Source: Spisula solida (taxonomy: Eukaryota; Mollusca; Bivalvia; Venerida; Mactridae). Taken from it: a DNA stretch of 64,000 nucleotides. The DNA lies in contig OX365962.1 of NCBI GenBank assembly GCA_947247005.1, positions 4,685,201-4,749,200 on the forward strand. The letters are read 5' to 3'. A program made the position numbers and the translations under genes. Positions 73 through 57,942 of the stretch are shown here, piece by piece (positions within the stretch are counted from its first letter, which is position 1; every line of letters starts with the position of its first letter). Under the pieces are notes generated by a model. That model had not been told where the DNA came from and searched no databases. It worked only from the letters and a program-made list of their open reading frames with translations.

Positions 73-177
73 CAGTTAGAACATATTAAGTAAATTTTAA
101 TGACTAAAAAAGACTCGCTTCGCTTCGCTCGCTCCGCCCTTTTTAATAATTAAAATTTACTTAATATGTTCTGACTG
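73..177. repeat. Palindrome P1 with GC-rich core
   Basis: Arms 73-100 and 150-177 are reverse complements over 28 bp with one mismatch. The ~49-nt centre carries CGCTTCGCTTCGCTCGCTCC, which on the other strand reads GAGCGAAGCGAAGCG. The stem is very AT-rich and the core is GC-rich. It is one of seven palindromes in the window with this kind of core. Foldback or MITE-like origin is inferred. Confidence 0.85.
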
Positions 178-719
178 TAACGTAAAGCAAAGTGAAAAAA
201 TGACGTCATTTGAGTTCTTTGTTAATTATGATGACGTCATGGATATGAAGGAAATTAAATAAAAGTAATTTTAACAAACGTTGTTGTCTTGACTTCAATA
301 CCCTGAACTAAAAAGATAATTAAAAGTAGTTTTTCAAGCATTGTTCACTTGGCTTGATCGCGTTTTTAAACGTTGGCAATGCTTTGTTCACGCTGTCATA
401 GAGCAAATAGTGGCGCACAATCTCCGCATTGTTCCAAACTGTCTAGCGGAAAAGATGGCCATTGTTCTATCTATACTGCTAATGGTAGACATTTGCTAAA
501 TTCACCCAACGTCAATTATGGTTTAGAACTTTGTGTTTGCTTAAGTATCATGTATGTTACTAATAAAGACAATAAATCAACAAGTTAACAAGCATATCTC
601 TTTCTGGAATGTCGTTGTTATTTCTGATGCTTTTGCTAATTAATACGTACGGAATATTGTGATATTTTGATATAAATACTACGAAAGACCAGCGGCAAAA
701 AATAAAAAATTCACAATTT
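178..719. other. Non-coding; two CRE-like octamers
   Basis: No credible gene is seen. Two perfect TGACGTCA octamers (201-208 and 232-239) lie 31 bp apart, matching the CREB/ATF site consensus. No gene start is recognisable nearby, so a regulatory role is unsupported. A 71-codon open stretch at 373-588 starts at TTG and resembles nothing recognised. Confidence 0.4.
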
Positions 720-935
720 CAATGCACGATCTTAAATATGTTTAGATGTTAAAGTGAAACCGCGAAGGGTTCAAATCAAATCGTGTGTAAATTCCTAAAA
801 CCGTGAAATTCTGATATAATTATATATATATTAGTGAAATCGTGAATGTGTTACTGAATTCTTGAAACCGTTATATCGTGAAATAAAGTAAAGGGAAATC
901 GTAAATTTGTATTTTCGTGAATATGGGTTTGGTAT
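720..935. repeat. Degenerate 'AAATCGTGAA' repeat tract
   Basis: Variants of GTGAAATCGTGAA and GGGAAATCGTAAATTTG recur every ~25-35 bp. A similar tract occurs at 12825-12965 (GGGAAATCGTGAGTTTGC, then GGGAAATCATAAGTTTGC). In both places a TATCAATTTTGTTGAAT segment follows within ~100 bp, so the two tracts look like copies of one repeat. Confidence 0.6.
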
Positions 936-939
936 TTAT

Positions 940-1011
940 TGTATCAATTTTGTTGAATGAAATATTACTTAACCGACGTTAAGTAATATTTCATTCAACA
1001 AAATTGATACA
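940..1011. repeat. Perfect 72-bp palindrome P2
   Basis: Arms 940-973 and 978-1011 are perfect reverse complements over 34 bp with a 4-nt loop (CGAC). One arm matches single, non-palindromic copies at about 5530-5572 and 13015-13060 (TATCAATTTTGTTGAAT, then AACCGAC). This palindrome is therefore an inverted duplication of a segment of a dispersed repeat, joined at its CCGAC end. Confidence 0.95.
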
Positions 1012-2539
1012 TGTACTATTAACATACAGATACAATAATAATTTCCAATTAATTGGAAAAATCACGTCGAAATTAGAAAGTCACGACGTGAGAATTATGA
1101 CGTCGTGTTGACGTAACGCTTATAGGCCAGTCATTCTAGCCCAAAAATGGCCTTAACCTAGACAAAATTGCAAAAGTTTTGTTTTGAGTATTTTTAAGTT
1201 TTTTAATGTCTAAACTTCTACCAGGAAAAAATCCCCTGTTCAGAAAGTTGCGGAAGTACCTTAAAAAGCGATTTTAAGAAGGTCACTATACTTTTCATAA
1301 TTTTATTCCATGAAAATTTGGGTATAACAGTTTATCAGTAGTTTAATGTTATACACACACGCAGGTTAAAATATCAAACCATGTTGTTGATAAAAGGAAT
1401 TTACAATCAAAATATTTTCAATAAACCATTTATTTCAATTTTTTAAGCAAATAATGTGAAAATGAAGGGGTAGATTTACCCCACCCACTTTTCAGAAAAT
1501 ATGATAATTATTTTTGTACCATAAAACATGAATTAATTTCTTTATTTTGGGTAAACATATCTAAATGAGAGTGTTTTATAAGTCATCAACTGATAAACAT
1601 GCATCAGGATCTTAATTTGACCTACATGCGTGTGTCCATCCGTTTGTCTGTAAACGCGTCGGTCAGTCATGCTCATCCGTGAAGAAATCTTTATTATATG
1701 ATTAAGTAAAATAATTTTCATGGTGTCGTTATTAAACTTAGTATGTGGAGAGGGGCCTATAAGGGGCTTGTCATGAGATAGTGAATAACATTTCATATTT
1801 ATATTATGACAACAATCCCGGTTGCTATGGAAACGAAAATGGTATGGTAGCATTAACTTCTATTTCACTGTTTAAGCTTTATATTCGATTTGTTTAATGT
1901 ATCGTCACGTAGGTGATTTCCGGACAATCCAGGTCAATTATAATATAATTTATGTTTGTGATACCTTGGAACTTATGAAGTGCAATCACAAGTCGGAGTT
2001 CCTTTTGCAATGAAGTTCATTTATGTCATAATAAATATACCAGTAATATATAAACACCAAAGTAGATTGAATGTATCTGACGTTTTATTAATAATAATCA
2101 TAATAAGGTTATGTTAGCAAATTATGACATTATGAAGTTGGACAAAGCAAAGTCTACGTTTGAGCTATAAAAACCACATGGTTAACTGATACTAGTCTAC
2201 AGGGGGTATGGCTATAGTCTGGCAGTTGGTTTCCTTGGTAACCCCGCAACAGCATTTAAAGACCGGTACAGAAATTTCTATGTTTTGAATCAGTAAAACA
2301 AATTTATCAGTTATGTTTTAGTACAAAACTGACCGTATCTGTAGATTTGTTTGGATGTATGGCAGACAATTTTTGAAAATGATGCGTTTGTCGGGACTAA
2401 CATTTAATGCTGGTCTGCGTTCAACCAACACATGTATACCAATGACACAGGGTGTGCGAAATGCCTAATTCATCAAGAACATGATCGCATCTACCAACAA
2501 CAACCGCGGTTGTTGCATGGACAGCAGTTTTTAAAATAA
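1012..2539. other. Non-coding, little recognisable
   Basis: AT-rich and without a supportable gene. The part at 1600-1860, read on the minus strand, has the layout of the repeat at 52460-52860: a CGGTTGCTATGGAAAC-type motif, an AAACTTAGTATGTGG-type motif, and a GTCCATCCGTTTGTC-like stretch. It is probably a diverged copy of that family. Nothing else is recognised. Confidence 0.35.
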
Positions 2540-3012
2540 TGCGAAACATCGCCGATGTGTCGGGAAACCTCTGGGATGCCTCGAAGAATTAGTTTTATCG
2601 CGGAAGCATCCCCGATCATTCCCCGAGGTTCTGGATACCTCAGGAATGCCTCCTCGGGATATTCCCGAATTTCGGGGATGCCTCCCCGAGATGTTCCCGA
2701 CATGACATCGTGAGTACATCGGGTAAAATTCAATACATACATTGAAATTTCCCGATGTACTCGCGATCTGACTAAATGTCTCAAGACTTCGGGGAGCTTC
2801 CATCAGACATCGGTGAACCTCCTGATGCCAATTGGCAATACATCCCGAAGCAGTTAGACCAACGCATAAAGTCGGGAATACATCGGGAGTTCGTCTGATG
2901 CCTCCCGATTCACAAATAGTTTCGAGACTGCCCCGAAGCTTCCCAAAGACCACGAGGATCATGCTCTCGATGTCTACCGAAGCTAATTTGTTTCTATCGG
3001 GAGTACATCACC
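2540..3012. repeat. GC-richer block of CATCGGG/CCCGATG motifs
   Basis: Short motifs such as CGGGATGCCTC, CCCCGAGA, ACATCGGGA and CCCGATG occur many times in both orientations. A clean hairpin (arms about 2709-2736 and 2740-2765, stem containing GAGTACATCGGG) sits in the middle. Overlapping minus-strand open frames (2491-2784, 2531-2962) exist only because the motif lacks stops. Their predicted residues are repetitive and match nothing I know. Confidence 0.6.
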
Positions 3013-3593: not shown

Positions 3594-4131
3594 CTTGTAC
3601 GTATTTTATGTTTTCTGTGCTCGGTTGGTTCAGCTGGGCATCGTGCCTTGTGTGTTTTTAATTTTTCTGTGCTCGGCTGGTTAAGTTGAGTGCTGCCTTC
3701 CCTGTCTGACTTAATACTATCTTTTTCTAAGTCTAAAATGGCAGATCACATGATCAAAATGCTTGACAGAGTTACCTACTCATGTGTATGTCATGGTGTC
3801 ATGATGATGAACATGTATGCAAAGTATCAATTTAAAGCAGTATGTCAATGCACTTTGAATATATTACAGGTTACAAACCTTTTATCTAGACTTTAAGATT
3901 TGCATTTCTAAGCCCAAAATGGGGTATACTTTCAAGATAATGCTTGATAAAGCTACCTAACTATGTGTATGGGTTAGGGTACATGATGGTGAACAAGTAT
4001 ACAAAGTACAAAAGCAATATGTCACTCCGCTTTGAAAATATTTGATGCTAATACTTGTACCTAAACTTTAACATTTGCATTTCTTTGTCCAAAAGGCGGT
4101 ATAATTTCAACAAAAAGCTTGATAGATAGAG

Positions 4132-4650
4132 AATAATAGGTTAGTGCCGTGGATGAATAAGTTTATCTGGCAAGACGGAGGAATTTATCGGGTGAGCCGT
4201 AGGCGAATCCGATAATTTCCGCATCCAAGCAGGATAAACTTTTACTTCATTCACGGCACTAACCTATTATACTATTTATCCAGTCGCTTAATCTGCTCAG
4301 TAAGGGGATCAAACTCGGGACTATACTGTTACTCTTTATTAACTAGCGAACAACGTCACGTTCGTTCCGTGACGTCACGATAAACAACGACGTCTGACAT
4401 TTTGATAGACGTTGTGTAGACGCAGGGAAGTCGAAGAAAATAACCGATCAACTACCAGCTCATTTAGGATAGGAAAACCTCACCCTCGGTCACGGAAATG
4501 CAACCTGCGACTCTCTTATAAGAAGAAATCCGTCAGATCACATGGTAAGGTGACGGATTATCACTAGTCACATGACGAGGTGACCGAGTATAGCTAAGTT
4601 TAATCGGCCCCACGTTAACTCGCAGACTTAATTTGACGGAAGTGACTGGA
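4132..4650. mobile_element. Insertion headed by palindrome P3
   Basis: Positions 4132-4271 form an imperfect ~140-bp palindrome. The outer arms contain ATAATAGGTTAGTGCCGTG and CACGGCACTAACCTATTAT, and the core reads GTGAGCCGTAGGCGAAT. About 380 bp more follow, with GACGGATTATCACTAGTCA-type short repeats. It splits a ~178-bp unit of the surrounding element between GATAGATAGA and GGATAAAGTTCCC, which shows that it is a later insertion. It has no coding capacity. Confidence 0.7.
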
Positions 4651-5339: not shown

Positions 5340-6101
5340 TTATTTTAAAGCCCGGGTTCGTTGACGTTACGTTTATTTTCCTGCATGATACTGGAACCAG
5401 CTGCTAAAACAGTGAAAATAACAAAGTGGTAATTTCACTGTTGTTTTCACTGTTATTTTCACTGAAAAATCTCCATGATCCATTGAAAGAAAATAATGAT
5501 TTGGCTTTATTATTTTATCTGTATGTTAATAGTACATGTATCAATTTTGTTGAATGAAATATTACTTAACCGACTAAATACCAAACACATAGTATAAGTA
5601 TTTTAATGACATTTTTTTAGACAAGTTTAAATTCATAATCATACCGATACAATGTTTCAGCCAGACAATCATGTGACGTCATGTCCGTACCCTTGCTTAG
5701 AATGAGAAGGACGTAAGCACAAAAAAGCTGTTTTCAGAAAACAAGAAAAAACTGTCTGAAAACTAATATTTAGTTATGGAAAAATAAGCCTTTTCAACTT
5801 TAATTTGGTCAACATGACCTGTTTCATCGAAATAGGCTCAAACGAAGCGCCTTGTGATGCAGATTTCAAACATGTGTTATAAAGTCTTATAAAGTTGTAA
5901 TATAGCACTTTCGAGTAGTTCGCTACTTACAGTATTCAGTTTCAGACAAGTATGACCTCTTTGTCCTATCGTGACATTTTTCCAATTACTTGATTTGATT
6001 CCGGTAGTTCATTAGCTGCAATATTCAGCGTAAAGTAGCGTAGGGTGGGCGTAATCATAGTATAATCGAATAGCGATATCGTCAAACGTGTAATAAGAGT
6101 A
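5340..6101. repeat. Dispersed repeat F, long copy
   Basis: Three blocks recur in the same order elsewhere. TATCAATTTTGTTGAATGAA to ACCGACTAAATACCAAACAC (5530-5590) recurs at 13015. GACCTCTTTGTCCTATCGTG with GTAGTTCATTAGCTGCAATA (5940-6090) recurs at 13250-13400. GAAGGACGTAAGCAC with AAACAAGAAAAAACTGTCTG (5695-5900) recurs at 14702-14900. A TTTCACTG/CAGTGAAAATAAC cluster at 5410-5465 can fold. No coding capacity is seen. Confidence 0.7.
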
Positions 6102-8314: not shown

Positions 8315-8468
8315 AAAAAGAATCCGCCATTCGTTGTCTTTGGTGTCAACATTTCTTTAACTTGTCACGAAAAAAAAAATTAAGCTCGCCAAAGGCTCGC
8401 TTAAAAACCTTTGTTTTCTAGACTCGTTTAAGAAATGTTGATCTCCAAAGACAACTCATGACGGATCT
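8315..8468. repeat. Palindrome P4 with GC-rich core
   Basis: The arms (about 8320-8362 and 8425-8467) pair imperfectly: GTTGTCTTTGG against CCAAAGACAAC, CAACATTTCTTTAAC against GTTTAAGAAATGTTG, and GAATCCG against CGGATCT. The centre contains AAGCTCGCCAAAGGCTCGCTT. The outer flank ATGTGATAAAAAGAATC is shared with P7 at 38105, so P4 and P7 appear to be related copies whose stems have diverged while remaining self-complementary. Confidence 0.8.
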
Positions 8469-8615
8469 ATATATATCCAGAAGCGTTTATTTTTCTTGTC
8501 ATTTCAGCATGCCATCCAATATATTTCCAGTTTTTCTTCTCTTTTTCAATGAACTTTGTGTGGTATGAGGTCATGTTGGACAATCTGGTAATTGAATCCT
8601 GATATGTTTTATTGT

Positions 8616-10880: not shown

Positions 10881-11548
10881 TATTACAAAATGCATCGTTT
10901 TTTATATTTTTTTTTTGAAATCGTAAACCATCGAGAACATGTCACGTGCCCCTCCATGGACGTTTTACTATATGCTATCCAATATACCTGCTCGCTCAAG
11001 ATTCGCAGGTAACAAAGGAAAAATGGAGCTATTCCCTCAGCTCAGCTGTCGTAAAACTCATTGTTAGCATGAGAGTAACAAACGTAAGATCTTCAACTAT
11101 CTGAGCGTAATAAGCTTCTACATACTGTAAAAATAACTTTTCGGGAGTTATTAATTTTCGCTTTATTATAAAAATCGATCAATTCTCAAAATGGTATGTT
11201 CGTGAACTTAAACAACAGTGGGAATACAACAGCAAGGTTATTTTGGAATGTATAAATCGCAAACATTTAACTTCGCAAAATACTTAAAAAATACAATTTG
11301 CGAAATTTTGACCTGACAAAAATTTTGGATTTTACGGTAGTTCTGGAAATTTTGAACTTTCTGAATCTCTTTGTAGAAATTGCTTTATGCGCATTTTGCT
11401 CTGAGGCTGAATACTCATATTGTTTTTTTTTCCAGCTGAGAGTATATTGAACTTGAAAGGGATAATTATTGTTTTGCATTGAAGCGGAACATCAAATAAA
11501 TTCGGGATATTTGTTTGTTTTGATTGAATATAGTTTATATCTCATCGT
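10881..11548. other. Non-coding, nothing recognised
   Basis: Contains poly-T runs and AT-rich sequence. The minus-strand open frame 11267-11479 has low-complexity basic composition and no motif, so it is not called. Confidence 0.3.
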
Positions 11549-11616
11549 GTAGTGATAACATTCAATATTTTCAAGAGCGCGTAGCGCGAGTGAAAATATT
11601 AAAATGTTATCACTAC
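11549..11616. repeat. Palindrome P5 with GC-rich core
   Basis: Arm GTAGTGATAACATT plus CAATATTTTC (11549-11573) pairs with GAAAATATT plus AAAATGTTATCACTAC (11591-11616). The core is AAGAGCGCGTAGCGCGAG. Flanking ATATCTCATC and GATAAA extend the pairing weakly. Confidence 0.9.
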
Positions 11617-11804
11617 AAGATAAAGCGAAAGGCAGCGAAAAATATAATAGAGAGTGACACAAAGAAATGGCCAGTCACAGTACATTCAACGTACATTCAA
11701 CGGAAAACCAGAGTGTGACTTGTCAGTTACACACGGCGACAGACTTACAGAACCACTTTTCCTGGATTGTATCCTAACATGTACTTCAAATGTACCTGAA
11801 CCTG

Positions 11805-12824: not shown

Positions 12825-13400
12825 TTAATTTAAATCTTGAATTCATGAAGCGTTTAACAGAATTCATGAAATCGATAAATCGTGAAATGTTAATGGGAAA
12901 TCGTGAGTTTGCATTTTCGTGAAATAATAAAGGGAAATCATAAGTTTGCCTGTTCATGAATTTTGAATGTCGTCGTAACTATCCGTAATATTTATTTTAA
13001 CTGCATGTTAATGGTATCAATTTTGTTGAATATAATAGTATTATACTAAACCGACAAAATACCAAACACATAATTTATTATAAGTATTTGATTTACCTAT
13101 TTTGAGACAAGTTTGACTTCATTATCATACCGAGACAATGTTTAAACCAGATACACGTAATGTTTGTCAGTAGTTCGTTACTTACAGCACAGGAATTTGA
13201 AATTCTATCCATATGCTAATTTCAAATTCCAGGGCTTACAGTATTCAGTTTGACCTCTTTGTCCTATCGTGACATTTTTCCAATCACGTGATTTGATCCC
13301 GGTAGTTCATTAGCTGCAATATTCACAGTAAAATAGCGTAGGGTGGGCGTAATCACGGTATAATCGTATTGCGATACCGTCAAACGTGTAATAATCACTG
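12825..13400. repeat. Dispersed repeat F, second copy
   Basis: Starts with the AAATCGTGAA tract (to about 12965), then GTATCAATTTTGTTGAATAT and ACCGACAAAATACCAAACAC (13015-13075), then the GACCTCTTTGTCCTATCGTG and GGTAGTTCATTAGCTGCAAT blocks (13250-13390). Compared with copy 1 it carries an extra ~45 bp at 13187-13235 that includes a perfect hairpin. Confidence 0.7.
13192..13230. repeat. Small perfect hairpin inserted in repeat F
   Basis: GGAATTTGAAATT (13192-13204) and AATTTCAAATTCC (13218-13230) are perfect 13-bp inverted repeats with a 13-nt loop. Repeat F copy 1 (near 5930) lacks this segment: TTACAG continues directly into TATTCAG. A TTACAG duplication flanks the insert. Confidence 0.85.
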
Positions 13401-17025: not shown

Positions 17026-17243
17026 TATAACTCCAACGCGATAAATTGCAGTACAAAAACAAACACAATACTGTCTATATTTTTGTTATGGATTAATATC
17101 AAGGACCATAACATTTACCAATGAAAGCATTCAAACATTTGGCACAACATATAAAGTTTTCATGCTCCTAAATATTCAGAAACGATAAATATAGCGGATT
17201 TCGTGTTTGTTTTTGTATTGCAATTTATCGCGCTGGAGTTATA
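17026..17243. mobile_element. 218-bp MITE with 41-bp terminal inverted repeats
   Basis: Left end 17026-17066 (TATAACTCCAACGCGATAAA...) and right end 17203-17243 are inverted repeats over 41 bp with a few mismatches. The ends abut TA dinucleotides, as expected for Tc1/mariner-type target sites, though the superfamily is only inferred. The interior is AT-rich with no ORF. Confidence 0.85.
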
Positions 17244-18346: not shown

Positions 18347-18449
18347 GGTTATCGATCATATATTAGAATAATGAACGAATTAAGTACAAGTGAGCGAAGC
18401 GAACGCTGTACTTAATTCGTTTATTATTCTAATATGTGATCTATAACCG
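18347..18449. repeat. Palindrome P6 with GC-rich core
   Basis: Arms of ~42 bp (18347-18388 and 18407-18449) include GAATAATGAACGAATTAAGT and its complement, with a few mismatches. The core AGTGAGCGAAGCGAACGC (18389-18406) is GC-rich inside an AT-rich stem. It is the longest clean stem among the cored palindromes. Confidence 0.92.
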
Positions 18450-29619: not shown

Positions 29620-31533
29620 GAGAGGGCTTCTGGGCCATTGCGCCTTCTCTCAACACCTATGTCCTCTCCTATGTCATAGTCTACAAATTCATTTGACCCC
29701 AAACCTGGGTCAAAACAGTCCAAATCACTAGTTCTACAACTGTACTCTTCCATTTCATCTCCATTTTCATGACAAGACCCAGCATTAACAGCACCTGGTA
29801 TACACTCTGCATCAATGGCATTCATTGATTCATATTCATCAAATTCACACCTTTCATAACACTGTTTGTTTAAATTGATCTCATCCAGCTTAGCATTGTA
29901 ACTTTCTTCAAAAGTGTGGTATTCACATAATAAGTCTGTTTCATCATTTCTCCAGTGTGTGTACAGCATTATTTTCTGCCGAATGTGTTCCGCTCTATCT
30001 TTGTTTAAAGGAGTTATATGAGAGTATATAACTTTCTGTTTGTTTCTTTAACGTACACGAGTACCACATGGAAATCCAACACATACATCAAGTTCTAAGT
30101 CAACATCATCATCTTGGCCATACACATACTCCGTCTCAGGAAGTTCTTCATTCAACACCATTTTATCAGTTTTTTTTACCTGAAAGTTGACACAACTGAT
30201 ACCATGAAGCAAAGTCTGCATAGCACAGCATTCCCAACGAGTTTGAACGTATCTTGTACCTCTTTAAGGTATTGTCCATCTCAATATCACTGGAGTTCCC
30301 TGGCATTTCCTTCAGCTCAGACACTGGCTTTATTAGACTTGTTCTCTCATCTGGCCTTTTGGTATCAACAAAAATAACATCACGTGTGCATCGCCGAAGC
30401 GGTATTTGTAATACCAAATAGACTGCCTCTTGTGCACCAATTTCTACAGTAGATAAAAACTGATTACCTACTCTCCTGACCTGTTGTCTTATATCACTGT
30501 CAGATTGTTGAGCTTCTAAGCTAGCTTTTTTCAAAAAATTAGAAAGCCCTCTTTGTCACTTTGATATGTATGACACTATATAGGAAACGCATGAATAAGG
30601 ATCCAAGACAAACTGCAAATCCATATTTTCCATCCAAGATTTCAATAAAACAGTATTGTAGCTATTGATTCTACTTTCTCCAACAGATCGTTTCAACAAG
30701 ATTGTAGGTCTACTTAGAGTAAACCGTACTGTATCTGTATAAGTGCAAATCTGTATTTGTTTTATGCAGGTCGTTTAAAAAAGAAATTGTTTTCTTTACA
30801 CAAGTGGGATGATCCCTTGACATATGTTTTCCTTCAAGTGGATACAATACTATTGTTTCCGGCAAATGAAACAATGGGAAGTTGAACCGGCAAATATCCT
30901 TCCCTTTTTTCCTGCAGTTGGTGGCATGCCTATGCGTTTGGTAATTGGTCAAAGAGGGCATAGTTTCATATTTTAGCAGGTTACATATTGATCAACAAAT
31001 TCAACTTTGGAGGAATCAAAGCAATGACCATGAGCATTTTTTAATCCATATGAGACAGTGTATGTGAGGTGAACCTCGCTGTTGAAACTCAACACGATAA
31101 AAGAAATCAGCAACTTCAGCAATAGGGATGGATGCCTCAGTACATTCTTTATGAATGCCTGCACCTTGTAATCAAAATAACGTGCACAAGTAACTGGGTC
31201 TGACTTAATAAGGTTGCTTTTTTCTGTCCAAGATAGTGCTTTTACTTCTTCAAGAGTAATGTTTTTATGTACAAGTTTTGATAGGGACTGTAGTAAAGGC
31301 TCCCATTTTGTTTCAGCAGCAGAGAAAGAACAAAACCAAGTCGGAATTCCAAGTTGCCTGACCATTGAGAAAAGATCTCGCTTAGCTTGTTCCCAGTATG
31401 GAGGTGACCCACGCATTGTTCTAAGAACTCTATAGCCATCATTTTGCATAGTCAAATTTTCCACGAAACCAGGCGCTAAAAAGTCACCTGCTGTAATTGT
31501 ATAGCCCGTTTGCAGCGAAAAAAATCGTTTCAA
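29620..31533 (-). pseudogene. Helitron Rep/helicase polyprotein, decayed and truncated
   Basis: Successive minus-strand frames spell the conserved core of Helitron replicase-helicases. The Helitron-like N domain (31533-30973) has PGFVENLTMQNDGYRVLR, RGSPPYWEQAKRDLFSMVRQ and [12 protein letters not shown]. After a frameshift near 31090 the HUH nuclease motif is still legible as SPHIHCLIW (His-Ile-His codons at about 31058-31066). Next come the Cys/His segment HRHATNCRKKGKDICRF (30930-30870) and LDPYSCVSYIVSYISK followed by a stop (about 30556). Then come AQEAVYLVLQIPLRR (30430-30385), LCYADFASWYQ (near 30200) and WRNDETDLL (29950). The protein's extreme N-terminus and its PIF1/RecD helicase half are missing. 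Family enzymes nick and transfer single strands for rolling-circle transposition; this copy cannot. Helitron identity is confident. Confidence 0.9.
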
Positions 31534-36814: not shown

Positions 36815-38114
36815 AGTAAACTTCCTTAACTAAAAGTCATTTGGTGGAAATGACAGTTTAAATATGTAACCCAAAATCCACATCAATTCTGTGACTACAT
36901 CAATTTGTAAATGTCATTCAAATCCCTGAGGGTTTAAATCGATTCAACAACTACGCTACCCTCCAAAAACAATTAAGGGTTTGATCAATTAGTGAATTAT
37001 ATATCTTATATATTACATCTATGGGACTTTTTAAAGACCACAGCATGTCATAAATATGCCAGGCAATGTCCCTAAGGTTTGCAACGTTAATTGACATTGT
37101 CAAATAAAAGCCAAATTTACGTAATATAAATCTTGCCTTATATTAGCTATAGAACGTTTTAGTCAGAATGTAAGACTCAGTCCTGGCAATTATGTTAGGA
37201 TATAGAAGATTATTTTATCTCTTGTTTATGACATTCAATACAGCACAATGTTGATTGCATGGATTGATTATACAGACATTCTGTTTTACTTTATCTTGTA
37301 ACTATATTGTTTTATCACATAAAATAGGCTCTGGGAGTTTAATAAACCCATTACATAAAAGTCATAATACACACGTGTAATAAACATGCAAATGAGGTAT
37401 ATACAAGGGCGAGTCACTTTATTTATGTATTCATACACGTTGTCAAAAAAGTAAAAGAATACATTTTTAGAATAGAATAAATTCTATATCCGATTATGAG
37501 CACTCTAGGGCATGTTATAATCACACAATAACAGATGTACAAGAACTTAAGAGATATGACTGCAAGTAAACATGACGGTAGGTCCGTTAAACGTGGGTAC
37601 GAATAAGATCGGGACGAAATGTACATACCAAATATCTGGCATCTACACAAACACAGCATCGGATGTTGATTTCATTGTATAAATCCGTTAATTTTGAGTA
37701 TTAAAGACGATTTTCCTTGCTTACCAAGTACTTGCATCGTGTACAATCAGTTATTTTCGGCTATTCAGACGAATCGCGAATAAATTCACGCGGAAAACCT
37801 AGTTACTTCCCCTGTCCTTGGTTGTTACTAAAACCCGGAACGGAACACGGAACAGAACAGAATACGTTGTGTTGCTGCGGTCCTAGATTTAATTATTTAC
37901 TCTGTTAAGCGTAGTTTAACATCTGCAGGATTTTAGATACCCTAAAAATATTATTTTCAAAGGCAGAAAAAATAACATATTGGAGTATACATTGTTGCAC
38001 TATTTTCTTAGCTTTTTCAATGAACCGCTTTACTCCTATGGAGTTTATTTGCTAAAGGGGAAGTGTGTGCATTCTTGACAAACTTTTACTGTGTATTTAG
38101 TTTATGTGATAAAA
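36815..38114. other. Non-coding, nothing recognised
   Basis: About 1.3 kb without a gene. CCCGGAACGGAACACGGAAC (37833) resembles, on the other strand, TTGTTCCGCTTTCACGTTCC at 48160. This hints at a shared diverged repeat, but the match is too weak to call. Confidence 0.3.
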
Positions 38115-38259
38115 AGAATCTTACATTCGTGTCATTCCATATTAAATTTATTAAACTCGTTGAATAAAAGTGATAAAATGCTCGGCCGAGCCTCGCATTT
38201 TATCATTTTATCCAACTCGTTTAATAAATTCAATATAGAAAGACACTCATGTAAGATCC
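38115..38259. repeat. Palindrome P7 with GC-rich core
   Basis: A ~145-bp palindrome. The inner stem GATAAAATGC / GCATTTTATC is perfect, and the outer stem pairs AATTTATTAAACTCGTT with AACTCGTTTAATAAATT and ATCTTACAT with ATGTAAGAT. The core is TCGGCCGAGCCTCG. The left flank ATGTGATAAAAAGAATC is identical to that of P4. It lies just beyond the 3' end of the LINE. Confidence 0.88.
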
Positions 38260-38733
38260 TCTATATATTGTATATAATAGAGACTTTTGTAAACAAATGA
38301 TTTTGAAGATGAGTATCAATGAATTAATAATAACTTTTATTTTCCTCCATTTTGGAGAGCATAACATATTTACAAAACATAACAAAACATTAATATACAA
38401 ATATAAATAAACATTTGAATATGAATGATATATTTACATATGGCGCTGTATATTAACTACTGGATACAATGTACAATGTATATCAATATTAGCCACATAC
38501 CTTGGCTTACGGGGCGAAAACGACAATAAAGAAACGTTGTGGCATGTATGCAATAAGATATAGTAATACGATATACATCTAGATTTAGTGTGAAATTGTC
38601 ACAAACGTTTGGCTTAGAAGGCGAACAGCTATAACAACATCGTAATCATCAGAGTACAATCATAGCAGTTGAAAAAGAATACTGATATAAACGTACACAC
38701 ACACATACAACAGTTTACATTATACAGTATTTC

Positions 38734-41700
38734 TTACTTTGACAAAAGCTTAACGACCTGCGTTGTGAAATGCATGTAGACAAATGAGCTATCATCTGTT
38801 AATGAAGCAATACTAAATATAGTTCTACACTGATCAATGGGTGGTTGTCGTATAAATGTAATGAAATTATTCACACCATACATATTAAGCATAATATCCC
38901 AAAGCTGTTTCTGATAGACCACATTTGCATGGCAGTATAATAACAAGTGGGCCGGTTCATTATCAGTTCTTAATGAGCACATTTGACATGAGCGCATGTA
39001 TCTCCGGGAAACAAAGAGTCCTATATATCGCATAAGTGTCTTGCATATATTTGCATAATGTGTTGAGGCCTGAGCTATAGACCACATGGGTGATATCCAT
39101 TTACTGTCCACTATAATGTTTCTCAACCACGAATGGTCATTAACTTCCATAACATTAAGATTGTTCATATGCTCTGAGTTGACAATTTTTCGAAGTATCC
39201 TTTTCCATGAATGTATCGACGGAAATTCCCCTGATTCAACGAACCGCGCCAAATATTCAAGCAAAGAGTATCTTGCCAGTAGTCGATATATATCGGGTAT
39301 GAAACCCGTAGATTGTCTGTCTCCATCATAGTAGCGTATGAGACGGTTCACAAATACAGCCTTCGATAGATAGTGAGGCTGCAAACGACATAGTTGGCCA
39401 AAGAGTGTCAGTTTCTTGTAATTAACCATTGTCTCTATGGGTGTTGTACACAGACATGTGAATGCAAATAATGTGCTCGTTGACGTAAAGAGTCCTTGTA
39501 TTCGTTTTACACAGTGTCTATGAGCACGTTCTAGGATAAGCATATCTCGTGATGAATAAATGTTCCACAACTAGCATGAATACAATGCTTTCGGGATTAT
39601 CACACTGTAGTATATGCTTCTCAATGTTGCGGGGCTTATCATTGACGGATGTATACCACTAGTACGTATTTGCGCAAATGCTCCTCTCAGTTTAGTGGCT
39701 GCATCCCGGGTGTTACCTCCAGACGAGAGATGTTTATCACAAACCAGTCCAAGATGACAGTACTTCTCAGTTTCATTTAGGAGTTTATCACCAAGCATAA
39801 ATTTTGTTTGCTGCATGTTTTTATCGTTAAACACTACCACCTCACATTTGTCATTGTTATAGAGATATCTCCATCGTTGTGAATACGCGTTGCAGATGTT
39901 AAGCATTCGTGACATTCCGGCTTTCGATAGCGACACAAGGACCATATCATCGGCCACCGTCGGAGATCCTAACGACATATCATACATAATCAGGCCATCT
40001 CCACAGTCCCTGAGTTCTTCTATGAGTCCATTGATGTACACCAAGTACATAAGAGGAGAACTTTTACCTCCTTGACGCGTTCCTTGTGATATCGGGAATT
40101 CAGTGGATAGTTTACCCATAAACCGGACCTTGCTGCGCACGTCAGAATACATGTTTCTAAATGCCAGCAGCGTTGTATCGTCTACGCCCATCAAAATTAG
40201 TTTGTAAAACAGACCATCTGTCAACACACGATCGAATGCCTGTCTGGCATCTAACTAGCCAATGTATACCTTAGAAGAGAATTCTCTAGCAAAATGTAGG
40301 CACTCGCGAAACATGAATGAAGTCATTTAGCAGCCTAATCCTTTTTGAAATGCGCCTTGCTGGGGGTCAAGTTTACTGAGAATCTGTTCTTGGTACAAGT
40401 TCATATAGGTTAAGAAACACAGATGACAACGTGATGTCCCTGTAATTATTCGGATCATCTTTTCTTTTTCTTTCGCCCTTGTGAAGGGTCACAATGACTC
40501 CGCTTTTCATATCTGACGGAAAATGCGATGTCCGCAGCATGTTCGTGAATAGATTTCAAAGCACTATAGACATAACCTCTTTGCTGTGTATTAAATGTTC
40601 GTACACGACTCCATCATTGCCACCAGATTTACCACGAGGAAGTTTGGTGATGGCGTCCTGAATATCTGTCACTGAAACTGTAGCGTTTTAATCCGGCTCC
40701 AGCCGGCTCATAGTGTCCTGCACAACAGTACGCACGGTGTTCTCCCATCCGGCATCGAAACTTTGGGATTGCGAAGGTGAATAAAGATTAGCAAAGTACA
40801 TACTCCACTGTGTAATACCAGACTATCACGATCACGATAGGTCTCTCCCTTAAACTTGATACCGGCTCCAACAGAGTTCGATGTACCTGAGCGGCGCTTA
40901 ACATGACGCCAGAACGACTGGCTGTCCTCACGGCCATGGTCTCAAGGTTACTGTCTAACTGGGACAAGAAGACCTCCACACATCGACGATGAATATATCG
41001 GAAGCCACTCTTTGCTGTCTTATAAGACACGTAGTCGGGGTGTAGTGGACCCCTCGGTCTCCCAGCTCGACACCACTGCCTCTTCGCGGCCCTCATGACA
41101 AAATGGGAACGGGATAAGTCGTTATTCCAGTATGGTTTCACAAATTTACGAAAGCGTTTCACAGGCAGCGAAGCATTAGCACAATAAATAATTTCCTGAC
41201 ATATAGTATTGTAAGTATAGTCTATATCACCCGGACTAAGTTCACAAGACCGACTTAGTCGCTGCACAATTGCCGTGTTTGCAAGTAACTGTTCATAGTC
41301 TCGTAACTGCTGTTCACTGCATTTTCTCCAATGAATAGGATCACCGTGGAAAGATTCACTCGGCCCACCTTCACACACACACTTTATTTAAACCAAACAA
41401 AATAGGCCTGTGACGAGACACATTTAGGCAACAATCGTCCGCTAATTCACAGTATGTAATAAAGTCAGTATATTCAACTGGCAGGCATACGTAGTCTATC
41501 ATCGAAGTATGTTTACCATCATATGAGACAAAATAATTATTAGCTCCTTTACAAATTGGTAATAAATTTGCAGCACAATAGTTACAATTATACAAAAATT
41601 GACGAAAGAGTGAATCACAATGTTTTACATGTGGTGTTAGCAAACTTGCGTTAAAGTCACCCATAATAATTATCAAGCCTTTGTCATTGTATGTATGATA

Positions 41701-42097
41701 CAAGTCGTACAATAGAAATATATTTTGTTCAATGATTGCTACATGGTAAATATACCTGAAAAATATAGATATATGATTGATTTTTACACTCAACCTGAAT
41801 TCCAACAATTCTATCACTGTCAATGTTTATAGGAACAATTTGCATATTATATGTACGTTTCCACATAAGCGCTACACCGCCTTTACCACGACCCACAGGG
41901 CTGGTAAGACTGCTATCAAAGGCAGCATGAACACTGTAATTGCTAGATATTGAATTAAGAAAATGCATGTTATGGGACGACAACCAATGTTCTGATATGC
42001 CACAAACATCAATATCACCTTCAGTTAATACGTCACACAAATAAGAAACATTCGACATAATACCAATTACATTCCATGTAATAATATTCATAATCAC
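38734..42097 (-). pseudogene. LINE ORF2: APE endonuclease + reverse transcriptase
   Basis: The endonuclease starts at 42097 with ITWNVIGI and ISEHWL. After a frameshift near 41770 it continues with IIMGDFNASL, SMIDYV and SRHRPI, giving the metal-binding and catalytic Asn/Asp/His set of APE-type enzymes (N in GDFNA, D in IDYV, H in SRHRP). The linker frame 41378-40788 follows. The RT frame shows QQGAFQKGLGC (near 40340) and LDARQAFDRV (motif A with its Asp, about 40240), separated by stops near 40320 and 40256. SQGTRQGGKSSPL (about 40085-40045) and TVADDMVLV (motif C Asp pair at about 39950) follow. A single stop at 39571 separates the last part, which has CQMCSLR and HLLLYCH (zinc-knuckle-like). 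This would have nicked DNA and reverse-transcribed the element's RNA; it is now inactive. Confidence 0.92.
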
Positions 42098-51200: not shown

Positions 51201-51467
51201 GCCTGTGCTCTGATAAATATAGCAACTGCCCGTACTCAGAATGCAACCTAGCTATAAATGTATTATAGCACGTTAAACAAGCTTGCACACAGCTAAAGCA
51301 ATGTGTACATTATGTAATACGACACCATTATTACTAACAGCGAGATCCAGAATTAACCTTCACTGGTCTATCATATTCGTGTGTATAAGTTTCATGTACG
51401 CATTGTATCTGATACAGTATATCAATAATAAAATGTTAAGGACATTTCGCACAGTAATGAAATGTCT
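51201..51467. other. Non-coding, nothing recognised
   Basis: Spacer of ordinary AT-rich sequence. Confidence 0.3.
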
Positions 51468-51560
51468 TTTTCAGCAGCTTTACCGATGTTTTCATTACCC
51501 TGTGAAACCTACACGTTCCGCAGGGTAATGCACAAAACGGCACAGCCGCTGAAAAAGATT
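51468..51560. repeat. Imperfect palindrome H2
   Basis: CTTTTTCAGCAGCTTT pairs with GCCGCTGAAAAAG, and CATTACCCTG with CAGGGTAATG. The centre contains GTGAAACCTACACGTTCCG. The same words, arranged the same way, occur at 28265-28410. Confidence 0.8.
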
Positions 51561-52459
51561 TTATATTTCATAGAAAGAAAATAATGTGTCCCTTAGCGTA
51601 GCGTATATTTCATAGAAGAAGAAATAAAATACTTATGGCTTTTTTATTATCCAATGTTTACAAATTTCGCCTTGGAAATGTGGCCAAAAGTTACGTGGTA
51701 TTGTTACACTGATCCAGGTAGTTTAGTGGATTTTGGGCGAAAACGATAAATTACGTTGCGTGGATAGTACTCATTTTTTGCTTGAGCATAATAAGAATAA
51801 AAGAATTAACTATTTTTATATAGAATAATAAACTACCTACGGTTGATTTTTACTTTGTGTTGGGCAGATTTGTACTTGCGTTCTTAGCCAAAAATTACGT
51901 CACATACAACATGGTATGTCGACACCGATGCTTGTGCCTTTGAAATGACCCCAATATCACAAAGGAAGTGAATGAAGAATGGCTGAAGAGACCGTTGATT
52001 TTAATTATTGATATGACTTTATTAATCGATGTAAACTTGGTTGGGTACTAGCTTCAAAACTTATTGCTGAAATCAGCGTTTTTTAAATAAATTTTCTATT
52101 CTAACATTATTGACGCGTGCAATATGTGGTGCTAACTCATCACAAACGTCTTATTTCACATTTCTCGTGTCTATCCAATTCGATAGAAATTCCAAATTGA
52201 TATATTTCTTCAACAAATTGTATCGGCATTCCAATCGAGTTATGCCATCAGCCCTCTTTACGATTACGCGATCTCATTCCTTCCAATTAATTTCAAAAGA
52301 AATAGCATACCTTGAAGACACATGTTTGGAAAGATATCTTGCGCGACTGAAAGCAACGCTGATAATTTTGGAAAGATAATTGGAATGGTTTGCATGTTTC
52401 ATTTCCGAAAATTCTATACTTTTTGTCGGAAATGATTGTTGTAACCGGAAGGTGATAAT
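51561..52459. other. Non-coding, nothing recognised
   Basis: The plus open frame 52110-52379 starts at a non-ATG codon and has no recognised domain. No repeat ends are visible. Confidence 0.3.
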
Positions 52460-52860: not shown

Positions 52861-53632
52861 GGACTTCTATATTGCTTGCAATTCTTAGTGACTTGTTTTT
52901 ATAGGAGTTGGAGCGTTTAACCAGGAGTGGATAATTAATGGTCTGCAAACCGTAATTCATTTCCGATATTTCATATTTTTGCATTTGACTGAGAGAGTGC
53001 ATGGCCATTGGGTAATCGACCAATGACCTCCGGCTCTTAGGAACAGATATTTCATTAATTTTGTCGGAAATGAAGTTTTCAACCGGAAGTGGAATGTGTT
53101 AATCATTCGATCAATGTTCTAAATCAATCAAGGAGCAGAGTTCCTGTCTGCTTTTGCATATCAAGTCGGTATTTTGCTGACGTTTAAAAGTTTAAAAAAA
53201 CTTGATTTGTGCACCGCAAAATTCGCATCGTAATTTCCCGACGCCTTATCATTTTGACATTTGTCGTTAATGTTACAGAAAATATGGGAATTCTTTGAGA
53301 CCAATTTGAACATTGAATTCGTTTTCCTGGTTAGGACACGAGTAACATATTTTTCTATTGAAACGTGCACTCTTCAGCGAAGGTAATAGTTAGTGATACA
53401 TCAATACCGTGAACAAGCATATTTGTCTCGAAAATCATAGATGCCTCGAAAAAGTTCTCCGGGCCCGGCTAAGTCTCTCCATTATTTATAATTGTAAATA
53501 TGTTATGTATAAAAATGGATATTGTTTTATTTCTATTGTTATATGAATAAATTAATTTAAAAAAAAATTGATACTCGTGCATTAATTATACGCACGTATT
53601 AATTATGCAATGTACAAACTATATAATCAACA
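52861..53632. other. Non-coding, nothing recognised
   Basis: The minus open frames (52823-53023, 53161-53370) are short and unsupported. Confidence 0.3.
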
Positions 53633-55546
53633 TACATGTATGGTAGGCCTACACGTCACGTCCGGCAAGTGTTCAATACATGTATGGTAGGCCTACACGT
53701 CACGTCCGGCAAGTGTTCAATACATGTATGGTAGGCCTACACGTCACGTCCGGCATGTGTTCAATACATGTATGGTAGGCCTACACGTCACGACCGGCAA
53801 GTGTTCAATACATGTATGGTAGGCCTACACGTCACGGCCGGCATGTGTTCAATACATGTATGGTAGGCCTACACGTCACGGCCGGCATGTGTTCAATACA
53901 TGTATGGTAGGCCTACACGTGACGACCGGCATGTGTTCAATACATGTATGGTAGGCCTACACGTCACGGCCGGCATGTGTTCAATACATGTATGGTAGGC
54001 CTACACGTCACGTCCGGCATGTGTTCAATACATGTATGGTAGGCCTACACGTCACGGCCGGCATGTGTTCAATACATGTATGGTAGGCCTACACGTCACG
54101 TCCGGCATGTGTTCAATACATGTATGGTAGGCCTACACGTCACGTCCGGCATGTGTTCAATACATGTATGGTAGGCCTACACGTCACGTCCGGCATGTGT
54201 TCAATACATGTATGGTAGGCCTACACGTCACGTCCGGCATGTGTTCAATACATGTATGGTAGGCCTACACGTCACGTCCGGCATGTGTTCAATACATGTA
54301 TGGTAGGCCTACACGTCAAGCCCGGCATGTGTTCAATACATGTATGGTAGGCCTACACGTCACGTCCGGCATGTGTTCAATACATGTATGGTAGGCCTAC
54401 ACGTCACGTCCGGCATGTGTTCAATACATGTATGGTAGGCCTACACGTCACGTCCGGCATGTGTTCAATACATGTATGGTAGGCCTACACGTCACGTCCG
54501 GCATGTGTTCAATACATGTATGGTAGGCCTACACGTCACGTCCGACATGTGTTCAATACATGTATGGTTGGCCTACACGTCACGTCCGGCATGTGTTCAA
54601 TACATGTATGGTAGGCCTACACGTCACGGCCGGCATGTGTTCAATACATGTATGGTAGGCCTACACGTCACGTCCGGCATGTGTTCAAAACATGTATGGT
54701 AGGCCTACACGTCACGTCCGGCATGTGTTCAATACATGTATGGTAGGCCTACACGTCACGGCCGGCATGTGTTCAATACATGTATGGTAGGCCTACACGT
54801 CACGTCCGGCATGTGTTCAAAACATGTATGGTAGGCCTACACGTCACGTCCGGCATGTGTTCAATACATGTATGGTAGGCCTACACGTCACGGCCGGCAT
54901 GTGTTCAATACATGTATGGTAGGCCTACACGTCACGGCCGGCATGTGTTCAATACAGGTATGGTAGGCCTACACGTCACGTCCGGCAGGTGTTCAATACA
55001 TGTATGGTAGGCCTACACGTCACGTCCGGCATGTGTTCAATGCATGTATGGTAGGCCTACACGTCACGTCCGGCATGTGTTCAATACATGTATGGTAGGC
55101 CTAAACGTCACGGCCGGCATGTGTTCAATACATGTATGGTAGGCCTACACGTCACGGCCGGCATGTGTTCAATACATGTATTGTAGGCCTACACGTCACG
55201 TCCGGCATGTGTTCAATACATGTATGGTAGGGCTACACGTCACGTCCGGCATGTGTTCAATACATGTATGGTAGGCCTACACGTCACGTCCGGCATGTGT
55301 TCAATACATGTATGGTAGGCCTACACGTCACGGCCGGCATGTGTTTATAACATGTATGGTAGGCCTACACGTCAGGGCCGGCATGTGTTCAATACATGTA
55401 TGGTAGGCCTACACGTCAGGGCCGGCATGTGTTCAATACATGTATGGTAGGCCTACACGTCACGGCCGGCATGTGTTCAATACAGGTATGGTAGGCCTAC
55501 ACGTCACGGCCGGCATGTGTTCAATACATGTATGGTAGGCCTACAC
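53633..55546. repeat. 44-bp satellite, ~43.5 copies
   Basis: The unit begins TACATGTATGGTAGGCCTAC, continues ACGTCACGTCCGGCATGTG and closes TTCAA. Copies differ mainly at one site (CACGTCCGG against CACGGCCGG) and at CAAGTG/CATGTG; a few have single changes. The first three to four copies favour CAAGTG, and the 3' third is richer in the GGCC variant. The palindromic words TACATGTA, TAGGCCTA and CCGGC recur once per unit. Because 44 is not divisible by 3, long open frames here are artefacts. Confidence 0.99.
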
Positions 55547-56281: not shown

Positions 56282-56294
56282 GGGGGGGGGGGGG
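56282..56294. repeat. Run of 13 G
   Basis: A homopolymer G run preceded by GTGTGGTGGT. Such runs can form quadruplexes and are prone to length error in sequencing. Confidence 0.95.
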
Positions 56295-56854
56295 TGACCG
56301 TGGTTACACCAGTTTGGTGACATGCAAGTCCCACCCAAGTCAAATTCTATTACATAGAGCTACACAAATTATTGTATTGTTCATATGTATCTTCCCACGG
56401 CCACTCATTTTTTAATAAAAGTTATTGATAATATTTATATAAATTTTGTAATTTTGAACATATTATCAATGCGTATACCTATCCTGGTCATGTAAAAATA
56501 TGATTTTAACGTCATGTAATTATATAGTAAATCTGTCGGTTCATTGTCATTTATAATAATATTGACATTAACACGTTATTCAGAACCTGTCACGTGACCG
56601 GTCAGTGTGTCTTAGTCTAGTTACTTAAAGCAATACATGGACCAGGTGCGGTTAAAAAGTTTTAACACCGGTCAAATTGCGTTCCACAAACGTATCTATT
56701 TGCATAGGCATTAAATTTGGTAAACTTGCACTTTTGCGAGTTGTAAAGAATTTCGTAGATGAAAATTAAGGGAGCGGGAATATCACTGGTCCGTAATTGG
56801 AGGTCGATTAATTGAAGGGCTTAGATTTCGTGGCCAAATTCGAAAATGGGTCTT
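56295..56854. other. Non-coding, nothing recognised
   Basis: AT-rich; no gene or repeat boundary. Confidence 0.3.
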
Positions 56855-57130
56855 GTAGCTCCGTAGCTCAGAGGTTAGAGGGCTTGACGTCTAATTTGGC
56901 GACTCGGGTTCAAATACGGGTGGAGGCACTCGTATGCCTCCCATATTTCAGCATAAAAATGCGGGAAAGAGGAGCAGCTACTAGACACAATCCAATTTAC
57001 TTCAAATCTGTCCCAATCTGGAGGAAACACGACAGGAAATTCAATTGGCTCCTTCCAGACAACATGATAGCAAAAACTCGGACAGGGAAGGAAGCACTCA
57101 ACAGAAACAGTCGAGCACAGAAAACATAAA
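56855..57130 (+). mobile_element. tRNA-derived SINE (family S3)
   Basis: The head reads CTCCGTAGCTCAGAGGTTAG (a near-canonical A-box/D-arm) and ACTCGGGTTCAAATACGGGT (B-box/T-arm). 3' GGAGGCA pairs partly with 5' TAGCTCC. The anticodon arm (CTTGACGTCTAATTTGGCG) does not fold properly, so it is not a working tRNA gene. The following ~200 bp (AGGAGCAGCTACTAGACACA onward) may be the SINE body. It is the best-preserved tRNA-like head in the window. Confidence 0.65.
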
Positions 57131-57664
57131 ACACACACGGCACAAAGCCCGACTCACAACGGTACTAGAAACGAGAAAGTCCAACTTTCAGCTTTCAAAA
57201 GTCACAGTTGTCAAAAAGCTGTGGTGAGCTATCAGCAACATACAAAATACGGTGCAGTTCATCACCTTATCCAAACTAAAGATTTAAATAGACCAGACAA
57301 GATAGAACGAAGACGAAGACTCCGCGGTATCAGGGAAATAGTTAACCCCCACAAAAAATAACGATTTTACTTCACACATTTTTTCCGTTTTACGATTTAA
57401 GTATATTTACATATCGTACGTATTTTCACCGCAAATTTGTCGAAGGCAAATATTGTCGTATTGGGGTACTGAAATGAAAGTGGGTACTTTAATAGATGAG
57501 AGCTTATAGGTAAATGTAAAACTATATATGACTAAGTGGCAAATATTTAACCGCTACTGTTAAAAGTAAATACAAGTACGACACACTTGTGACTTTTGAA
57601 GGTCAATACGATAAAGTGTTGGATTCGGTTACAACGATATAATCAGTGGTGTTTTACATTCGAT
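57131..57664. other. Non-coding, nothing recognised
   Basis: AT-rich spacer between two SINE copies. Confidence 0.3.
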
Positions 57665-57795
57665 TTAATCTGTGTGGAGCCTATAGGTACGATGCGCTTT
57701 TGTGTCAAGAGGTCCCGGTTCGATCCCGTCAACGCCTATGAAAAACTTCTCTAAGCAAGACTAACCCATGTGCTCAACACTTAAGTGGGTAGTAT
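57665..57795 (+). mobile_element. tRNA-derived SINE (family S1)
   Basis: The A-box is degraded (GTGGAGCCTATAGGTACGAT) and the B-box is clear (CCCGGTTCGATCCCGTC). The body has TAAGCAAGACTAACCCATGT and CTCAACACTTAAGTGGGTAG, aligning with the S1 copies at 11805 and 49480. Confidence 0.7.
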
Positions 57796-57833
57796 AGTTA
57801 TTGCAGACATTATATAAATAACATATGACTGAG

Positions 57834-57942
57834 AGGGTGATAGTAAATACAAATGTAATACCAACCCGAGAATTGTAATATCACCCGAGGCGAAGTCGAG
57901 GGTGTATGACTATTCAAGGATTGGTATTATTTACTGTCACCC
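57834..57942. repeat. Palindrome P9 with GC-rich core
   Basis: The outer arms GGGTGATAGTAAATA and TATTTACTGTCACCC, then TAATACCAA and TTGGTATTA, pair. The inner stem CACCC / GGGTG encloses the core GAGGCGAAGTCGAG. CACCCGAG recurs just outside at 57938. Pairing is imperfect between arms and core. Confidence 0.78.

Follow-up and report, generated by a model that had tools for sequence, protein, structure and literature searches.

Why should palindromes whose arms do not resemble one another carry like centres? The question is raised by a stretch of 64,000 nucleotides from the bivalve Spisula solida (contig OX365962.1, positions 4,685,201 to 4,749,200), referred to here as the window. A preliminary description had reported seven palindromes in it with mostly unrelated stems and a shared GC-rich centre that was not expected by chance. 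Two origins were considered for them: one foldback family whose arms are homogenised within each copy, or a core that nucleates inverted duplication of whatever DNA flanks it.

Results

All seven palindromes were recovered, six of them with ends within ~7 bases of those first given and P9 with arms ~25 bases longer on each side (Table 1). None of three dinucleotide shuffles of the window yielded any hairpin at the threshold used. The window also contains palindromes without the common centre (for example P2 and those at 2707-2767, 51456-51567 and 60247-60320). An Rfam search of the window at the gathering threshold returned one tRNA match and none on the palindromes.

Table 1. Positions and strands of the palindromic features discussed in the text.
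Feature	Positions	Strand	Details
P1 hairpin	73..177	minus	cap GAGCGAAGCGA at 120-130, within a ladder-like run of GC pairs with GA/GA steps
P2 palindrome	940..1011	no strand	perfect, without cap; comparison case
P3 hairpin	4118..4283	plus	cap GAGCCGTAGGCGA at 4194-4206; CAAG/CAAG internal loop 20 bp out
P3-bearing insertion	4128..4650	plus	read along the cap strand, P3 lies 5' in it; bounds approximate
P4 hairpin	8315..8473	minus	cap GAGCCTTTGGCGA at 8386-8398; loops CGAG/CAAG 25 bp and TGAG/CGAA 57 bp out
P5 hairpin	11490..11621	plus	cap GAGCGCGTAGCGCGA at 11575-11589; belongs to a high-copy element of ~575 bp
P6 hairpin	18347..18448	plus	cap GAGCGAAGCGA at 18392-18402
P7 hairpin	38109..38266	minus	cap GAGGCTCGGCCGA at 38182-38194; rungs CGAG/CGAG 23 bp and TGAG/CGAA 53 bp out
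P9 hairpin	57809..57968	plus	cap GAGGCGAAGTCGA at 57887-57899; CGAG/CAAG loop 17 bp out; three-purine mismatch ~50 bp out

The seven centres are indeed alike, but what they have in common is a fold of one strand rather than a sequence word. Each reads GA-[stem of 2-4 bp, mostly GC]-NNN-[stem]-GA (7/7; the P9 cap stem contains one G·T pair), which on a single strand only forms a tandem G·A mismatch above a very small hairpin, whose loop is in most cases a GNA triloop (5/7 caps). Triloop cap sites with all-GC stems number eight in the window, six inside palindromes and two outside, whereas 300 shuffles averaged 1.6 and peaked at 7. With stems of at least 3 bp the count is four, where the shuffles averaged 0.12 and reached at most 2. 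The core is found in 7 of 14 window hairpins (17 detected rows, of which four fall in a tandem array and are discounted, with P4 added because the detector missed it), with a rough binomial probability of 3e-11. Chance was rejected as an explanation on the basis of these shuffles and this binomial. GNA triloops are known for their high stability in DNA. DNA folding prefers the GA strand in all seven cases, P1 by just 0.2 kcal/mol, and RNA folding does so in six of the seven. The one-strand design of the cap suggests that the folded single strand, not the double helix, matters to the elements.

A sample of 190 kb, drawn at regular spacing from the 932 Mb assembly, contained 14 palindromes, four of them capped (rough binomial 9e-6) and three of those with a GNA triloop. 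Two of the capped sample hairpins, L706 and L714, were compared with six window elements other than P5 and matched none of them at E 1e-6. Since the cap recurs in a regular genome sample, including hairpins unmatched by the window elements compared, the capped palindromes are a genome-wide class of several families. Three families are dispersed, with alignable relatives elsewhere in the genome: P1 (L670, L676 and L680), P5, and P4/P7/L702. The stems are unrelated for the most part, with the exception of P4 and P7, two homologues (69.5% over 174 columns, E 1.5e-6) that form one family. The P5 family is both high in copy number and homogeneous like a MITE, with 25 of 30 ungapped copies at least 97.8% identical to the consensus, and by eye P3, P5, P7 and L702 share a similar AGAG(G/A)AT start. 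The genome-wide count of a loose core pattern lends no support to enrichment, with 1413 + 1458 forward matches and 1535 + 1576 in a backward control that we judged unclean, as ladder-like repeats match in both directions. In 20 fetched loci, 15 of 22 core sites of the loose pattern had arm scores below 16; this partly fits the case that the preliminary description named as refuting it, in which core hits are mostly not palindromic.

Element boundaries can be made out in the families of P1 and P5 and at the P3 locus. There the palindrome forms a hairpin at a single terminus of a longer element, the 5' terminus when read along the cap strand, and these elements are not classical TIR MITEs. The P3 insertion (~0.5 kb) is missing from five sister copies of a ~165-bp repeat and is flanked by GATAGA/GATAAA. 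MITE-type TIRs were not found in it, an 11-bp inverted pair (4279-4289/4640-4650) sitting off the 5' end. Matching TIRs of this type were not found in the P5 element either, where the 3' end matches, by eye, just a ~15-nt stretch inside the hairpin. The window copy of P5 lacks the outer right arm and the interior, its 3' part being missing and its 5' part present. Some copies do form alignable, high-copy families, which partly fits the other refuting case of the preliminary description, a few ordinary MITE families with alignable TIRs and target duplications. Inspection by eye of five P5-family loci revealed a target duplication of 8 bp at L653, which also has an A-rich 3' end, and unclear flanks at L654, L656, L657 and L659; a head-to-tail dimer is present at one locus. 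The hairpins (about 80-190 nt) are not the short terminal stem-loop of Helitron/Helentron type, and the arms do not fill the element as in a classical foldback, non-palindromic DNA following the hairpin in both of these families (P1, P5) and in the P3 insertion.

Additionally, the long stems carry tandem G·A "rungs" that, counted from the cap, recur at ~17-26 and 44-57 bp. Stem loops of 2x2 bases with the form Y(G/A)AR on both sides make up 6/8 in the window and 3/8 in five sample hairpins; the rungs of L706 lie 17 and 44 from the cap, and in L714, by eye, a GA/GA step accompanies a triple mismatch near 26. We rejected the idea that GA/GA 2x2 loops are general in inverted repeats of the window, where the count was just 2 of 31, P7 accounting for both, and each of 20 shuffles had none or one. 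Outside the cap, the stem mismatches of the window are biased toward one strand: read on the cap strand, G·T outnumbers A·C 18 to 6 and A·G outnumbers C·T 18 to 5, a bias equalled in 2 of 128 per-hairpin orientation flips. Pooling the window with four of five hairpins from its own genome, the decayed L717 having been dropped beforehand, gave 29:10 and 33:9 (family-level flips, 2/256). When L717 was retained, the counts for the five hairpins of the sample by themselves were 13:8 and 16:6, and the pooled p was 0.016. The counts behind this bias are small, and P4, P7 and L702 contribute heavily.

The arms turn over in different ways. In an alignment of paired columns of P4 and P7, a procedure that leans to double changes and left gaps in 16 of 73 columns, 12 of the columns paired in both hairpins had changed, 10 of them on both sides; a plain MAFFT alignment, misregistered, retained only 12 common pairs, four changed on both sides and one on one side. 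The 30 copies of the P5 family, fetched by exact cap and uninformative on cap conservation, carry 117 single-side changes and two doubles (one compensated), where independence predicts 2.0 doubles; in their stems G·T exceeds A·C by 27 to 16, which is not significant (p 0.13). Homogenisation of arms within each copy is partly supported: it is in keeping with the double changes of P4 and P7, but there are several families rather than one and the P5 copies argue against general rapid homogenisation. Duplication of the flanks in situ around the core is not supported, given the empty P3 sites and P2, an inverted duplication without the GC core. Compared with single-arm copies around 5507-5574 and 12992-13040, P2 looks derived, and its 4-base loop is inverted. 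An outward gradient of stem mismatches, as expected of self-priming from the tip, was not found: the rate is 0.21 near the cap and 0.17-0.21 farther out.

Discussion

We propose, at roughly even odds (about 0.5), that the capped palindromes are terminal hairpins of several non-autonomous mobile families whose functional form is the folded cap strand. The GA-bearing strand would act when folded and single-stranded, its tip being a mini-hairpin, mostly C(GNA)G, beneath a tandem G·A step, and additional G·A rungs would follow at about 20 and 50 bp from it. The arm sequences would be free to drift provided that pairing holds, and cap and rungs would be retained as needed by a putative enzyme or by the fold itself. 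The folded strand may be the substrate of mobility, and P6 and P9 probably belong to the same class as the other capped hairpins. A fuller version, in which an animal class of non-autonomous transposons is recognised by a putative enzyme as folded ssDNA, through a GNA-capped hairpin and G·A rungs at set distances, as an independent counterpart of REP and attC, is tentative and rather doubtful.

The hairpins may instead have no function, a stable tip nucleating self-primed template switching during replication, with one arm re-copied and the tip spared. We regard this as unlikely, although the inverted loop of P2 relative to its two single-arm copies is the signature of a switch, the double changes of P4 and P7 fit, and switching primed by a hairpin has been proposed to preserve the loop while correcting the stems (accessible text of PMC8794818). 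Such switching would account for P2, and possibly for arm matching, but alone should predict neither rungs nor one-strand bias. Moreover, P2 has no GC cap, the mismatch rate is flat with distance from the cap, the rungs of P4 and P7 persist amid changed surrounding pairs, and the P5 copies are not homogenised.

The copy number and homogeneity of the P5 family and the similar element starts are what one would expect of ordinary palindromic MITE-like families from a single ancestor, with cap and rungs inherited neutrally. This is improbable, however, since the P5 element and the P3 insertion have a hairpin at one end only and no MITE-type TIR pair, a target duplication is clear at one of five P5-family loci, L706 and L714 keep the cap without matching the window elements compared, and neutrality would not be expected to let the cap outlast arm similarity. 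We give an equally low probability to the GA strand acting as RNA, with structured transcripts that begin with the hairpin being retroposed or processed. The G·U-tolerant bias toward the GA strand, the RNA folding preference and the A-rich 3' end and duplication of L653 are consistent with it; the window P5 copy, in contrast, is short of its 3' part, not its 5' part, and DNA folding prefers the GA strand throughout, if barely in P1. We lean weakly toward ssDNA because most caps are GNA triloops, very stable in DNA, and because of the head-to-tail dimer.

Among known systems, recognition of a folded strand is documented in bacteria for REP and integron attC (PMC8266576, as far as its accessible text goes). 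REP sequences of the TnpAREP/RAYT system are short palindromes of 20-40 bp with GTAG/CGTC tags, thought to be non-autonomous and processed as a folded single strand, and in E. coli conserved stem mismatches and strand identity are required (accessible portions of PMC3733652 and PMC8266576). The bivalve arms reach about 30-90 bp and reside in an animal host. Streptomyces telomere hairpins similarly have GNA-triloop-capped palindromic stems with sheared G·A pairing and compensatory stem changes, but serve telomeres, and tandem G·A rungs are not described in the accessible text (PMC7205883). Helitrons/Helentrons and HINEs have a near-end palindrome and non-autonomous partners, theirs moving by a rolling-circle mode, and a Helitron_like_N ORF lies in the window at 30976-31533; the HINE 3' palindrome, however, is 5-10 bp in mite families, far shorter than the bivalve hairpin, and TT is targeted without target modification (PMC4067079, accessible text). 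The 8-bp flanking duplication at L653, unlike rolling-circle Helitrons, also speaks against our explanation. Pearl-family MITEs are likewise bivalve and non-autonomous, DTC84 having a conserved palindrome near a repeat junction, but as described in the available part of PMC5139131 they bear no long capped hairpin. Among the matches listed in literature searches on the topic, this cap is not described; for short core strings, the titles and abstract openings of the matches listed look unrelated, and a text search with longer prokaryote-repeat strings gave no match.

If selection keeps cap and rungs on one folded strand, animal mobile elements would share a mode of recognition documented in bacteria. 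This would account for palindromic repeats with unrelated arms but like centres, and would offer a fold-based route to families overlooked by sequence clustering.

Some viral contigs and some repeats of prokaryotes have the same cap with unrelated arms, which makes it directly testable whether stability alone drives this design. GA/GA hairpins were found at 8/41 viral cap-scan loci and 1/12 prokaryote loci, both seed-masked; they are not prominent among unselected viral hairpins (2/19 control-scan loci). The prokaryote repeat TTCTGAGCGAAGCGAAGAA, which we call REP-like, has the identical cap GA-GC-GAA-GC-GA, but its arms are short and nearly fixed in sequence, and we do not claim homology. Its variants keep GA/GA while the arms and inner stem covary.

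Capped palindromes in the window

Dispersed palindrome families with unrelated arms have a one-strand fold design in common. The preliminary description had claimed seven palindromes with GC-rich centres, and all seven were present in the window (P1, P3, P4, P5, P6, P7 and P9). Each centre can be written as GA-stem-NNN-stem-GA with a stem of 2-4 bp, mostly GC. On the strand reading GA, here called the cap strand, this cap is a tiny hairpin closed by a tandem G·A step, and the opposite strand carries a tandem T·C mismatch at the same place. GNA triloops were found in five of the seven caps (rough binomial 1.2e-5); PMC11292364 cites d(GCGAAGC), among its references, as a DNA hairpin of extraordinary stability. 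GA-core sites with an all-GC stem and a triloop number eight in the window, six of them inside palindromes, and 300 shuffles of the window gave a mean of 1.6 and a maximum of 7. Of the repeated-dinucleotide closures compared, GA, which reads TC on the opposite strand, ranked first both in total sites (8) and in palindromic sites (6).

Mismatches in the seven stems were counted from arm-to-arm alignments, with scoring symmetric for both strands and the cap left out. Read on the cap strand, the stems held 18 G·T and 6 A·C, 18 A·G and 5 C·T, 7 A·A and 6 T·T mismatches, a pooled bias equalled in 2 of 128 per-hairpin orientation flips. DNA folding energy was lower for the GA strand in all seven hairpins (by 0.2 kcal/mol in P1) and RNA folding energy in six, with P5 the exception; the cap itself contributes to both.

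Tandem 5'-YGAR-3' steps form sheared pairs. Six of the eight 2x2 loops outside the cap read Y(G/A)AR on both sides, and these rungs lie 20 bp from the cap in P3, 25 and 57 bp in P4, 23 and 53 bp in P7 and 17 bp in P9; the other two loops lie at 24 bp in P3 and 20 bp in P4. The CAAG form may be a decayed CGAG. By eye, P9 also has a three-purine mismatch ~50 bp from the cap. The stem alignments of P1, P5 and P6, all shorter-stemmed, showed no 2x2 loop beyond the cap.

Element anatomy and arm evolution

In P1, P3 and P5 the hairpin position is one-ended, and the cap strand enters the element through the hairpin in all three. Read on the cap strand, a ~575-bp element has the P5 palindrome as its 5' end. 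Five loci are alike between about -80 and about +490 relative to the cap, and in one of them (L656) the interior is rearranged. By eye, the 3' end is an inverted repeat of ~15 nt from just inside the hairpin, and one of the five loci (L653) has a flanking duplication of 8 bp. At another of the five, L657, two P5-family elements stand head to tail with an AATAAAT junction common to both. Relatives of P1 differ 5' of the hairpin and have the interior 3' of it in common; in the window this interior continues past the left edge. P3 occupies the 5' terminus of an insertion (see table).

P4 and P7 belong to one family. Of the columns paired in both, 37 kept the same pair; in 10 both sides had changed and in 2 just one side, each time from A-T to G·T. 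This count comes from an alignment of paired columns that leans toward double changes; a further 16 columns hold gaps, and 8 lack pairing in at least one of the two hairpins. Across 30 ungapped P5-family copies there were 117 single-side and 2 double changes, where independent sides would give 2.0 doubles; one of the two, the window's own copy, is compensated. These copies had 27 G·T versus 16 A·C and 21 A·G versus 10 C·T mismatches, and they are uninformative on cap conservation because they were retrieved by exact cap.

Own-genome sample and core sites

Nineteen regularly spaced 10-kb stretches (190 kb) of the 932-Mb, 36-contig own-genome assembly held 14 palindromes after removal of simple repeats. 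Four were capped: L702 (P4/P7 family), L719 (P5 family), L706 and L714. The last two had no match at E 1e-6 to P1, P3, P4, P6, P7 or P9, P5 being outside this comparison. A further locus, L717, looks like a decayed capped palindrome. With L717 included, the five sample hairpins gave G·T:A·C of 13:8 and A·G:C·T of 16:6 (pooled p 0.016); window and sample together, without L717, gave 29:10 and 33:9 over eight families, a bias reached in 2 of 256 orientation flips. Rung-type loops made up three of the eight 2x2 loops in the five hairpins. L706 has TGAA/TGAA at 17 and TGAG/CGAA at 44, and L702 has CAAG/CGAG at 22; by eye, L702 also has a larger loop holding GA/GA near 53, and L714 a triple mismatch including GA/GA near 26.

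The first eight loose-core loci from this genome comprised seven P5-family copies and one armless site. At 22 sites in 20 further loci, the arm score was at least 16 in 7 and below that in 15. The core word alone is insufficient for a palindrome. By eye, four loci (L664, L665, L677, L678) hold a dispersed repeat with GAGCGAGCGAAGCGAG or similar and no palindromic arms.

The cap-less palindrome P2 bears on inverted duplication. From its two single-arm relatives, the palindromic copy looks derived, by a recent inverted duplication with loop CGAC inverted to GTCG; inverted duplication therefore happens in this DNA without a cap. P2 looks like a template-switch mutation, in agreement with the template switching set out in PMC8794818.

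Similar hairpins elsewhere and proposed mechanism

The working form would be a folded single strand, and we lean slightly, on weak grounds, towards ssDNA over RNA. Cap and rungs would serve as recognition or folding signals; their counterpart would be the mismatches of E. coli REP, which act as such signals according to PMC8266576.

A purely physical account, in which cap stability drives the likeness, is still a live alternative in view of similar hairpins in viral contigs (IMG/VR) and prokaryotes. We scanned viral contigs for GAGCGAAGCGA, the cap in its exact form, flanked on each side by two fixed AT bases, with one control in which the step was reversed to AG. Among the matches listed, with identical copies removed, the arm score was at least 10 at 12 of 206 distinct cap sites versus 0 of 183 control sites (Fisher 4e-4); 194 of the 206 listed cap sites lay outside clear palindromes. 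Capped palindromes there include L264 (arms 25 bp), with a second one of core GACTCCGAAGGAGGA, and L470 (20). Two earlier scans gave arms of at least 12 in 4 of 45 loci, the best being L151 (24) and L184 (25), the latter with two capped palindromes of different arms; the first scan, with another core form, found long ungapped arms in none of 21 loci. Among the matches listed, GA/GA hairpins made up 8 of 41 hairpins outside the seeds in cap-scan loci, but only 2 of 19 in control loci and 1 of 12 in prokaryote loci. In prokaryote genomes TTCTGAGCGAAGCGAAGAA had at least 120 matches, with ~2 expected by estimate at equal base frequencies, and 38 of 48 non-seed capped hairpins among the matches listed had a GNA loop, with varied arms and inner stems. 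The homologous viral-contig sites L531 and L533, the sole such pair among the matches listed, differ by two double and no single arm changes. The likeness of the palindromes described here to the hairpins of viral contigs and prokaryotes argues for cap stability as one cause of the common design.

Other features of the window

Features located in the window, by position
Feature	Position	Strand	Details
P2, cap-less palindrome	940-1011		perfect; loop CGAC
Insertion with P3	roughly 4128-4650		absent in five sister copies of ~165-bp repeat
P2 single-arm relative	near 5507-5574		
P2 single-arm relative	near 12992-13040		
Inverted repeat	17026-17243		arms 57 nt (86%), spacer 104 nt
ORF with Helitron_like_N domain (Pfam)	30976-31533	-	
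LINE-like remains	39571-42097	-	one ORF with RVT_1, one with Exo_endo_phos
Tandem array	53632-55546		44-bp unit, 43.5 copies, 97% matches; within the GC-richest 2-kb bin
ANF_receptor fragment	62949-63422	+	

The window's GA-core site listings have no site at the inverted repeat. The ANF_receptor fragment has 15 homologues; the three named ones are all from Dreissena polymorpha (51-62% identity), on which basis the host is taken to be a bivalve, and one of them is annotated as a receptor-type guanylate cyclase.
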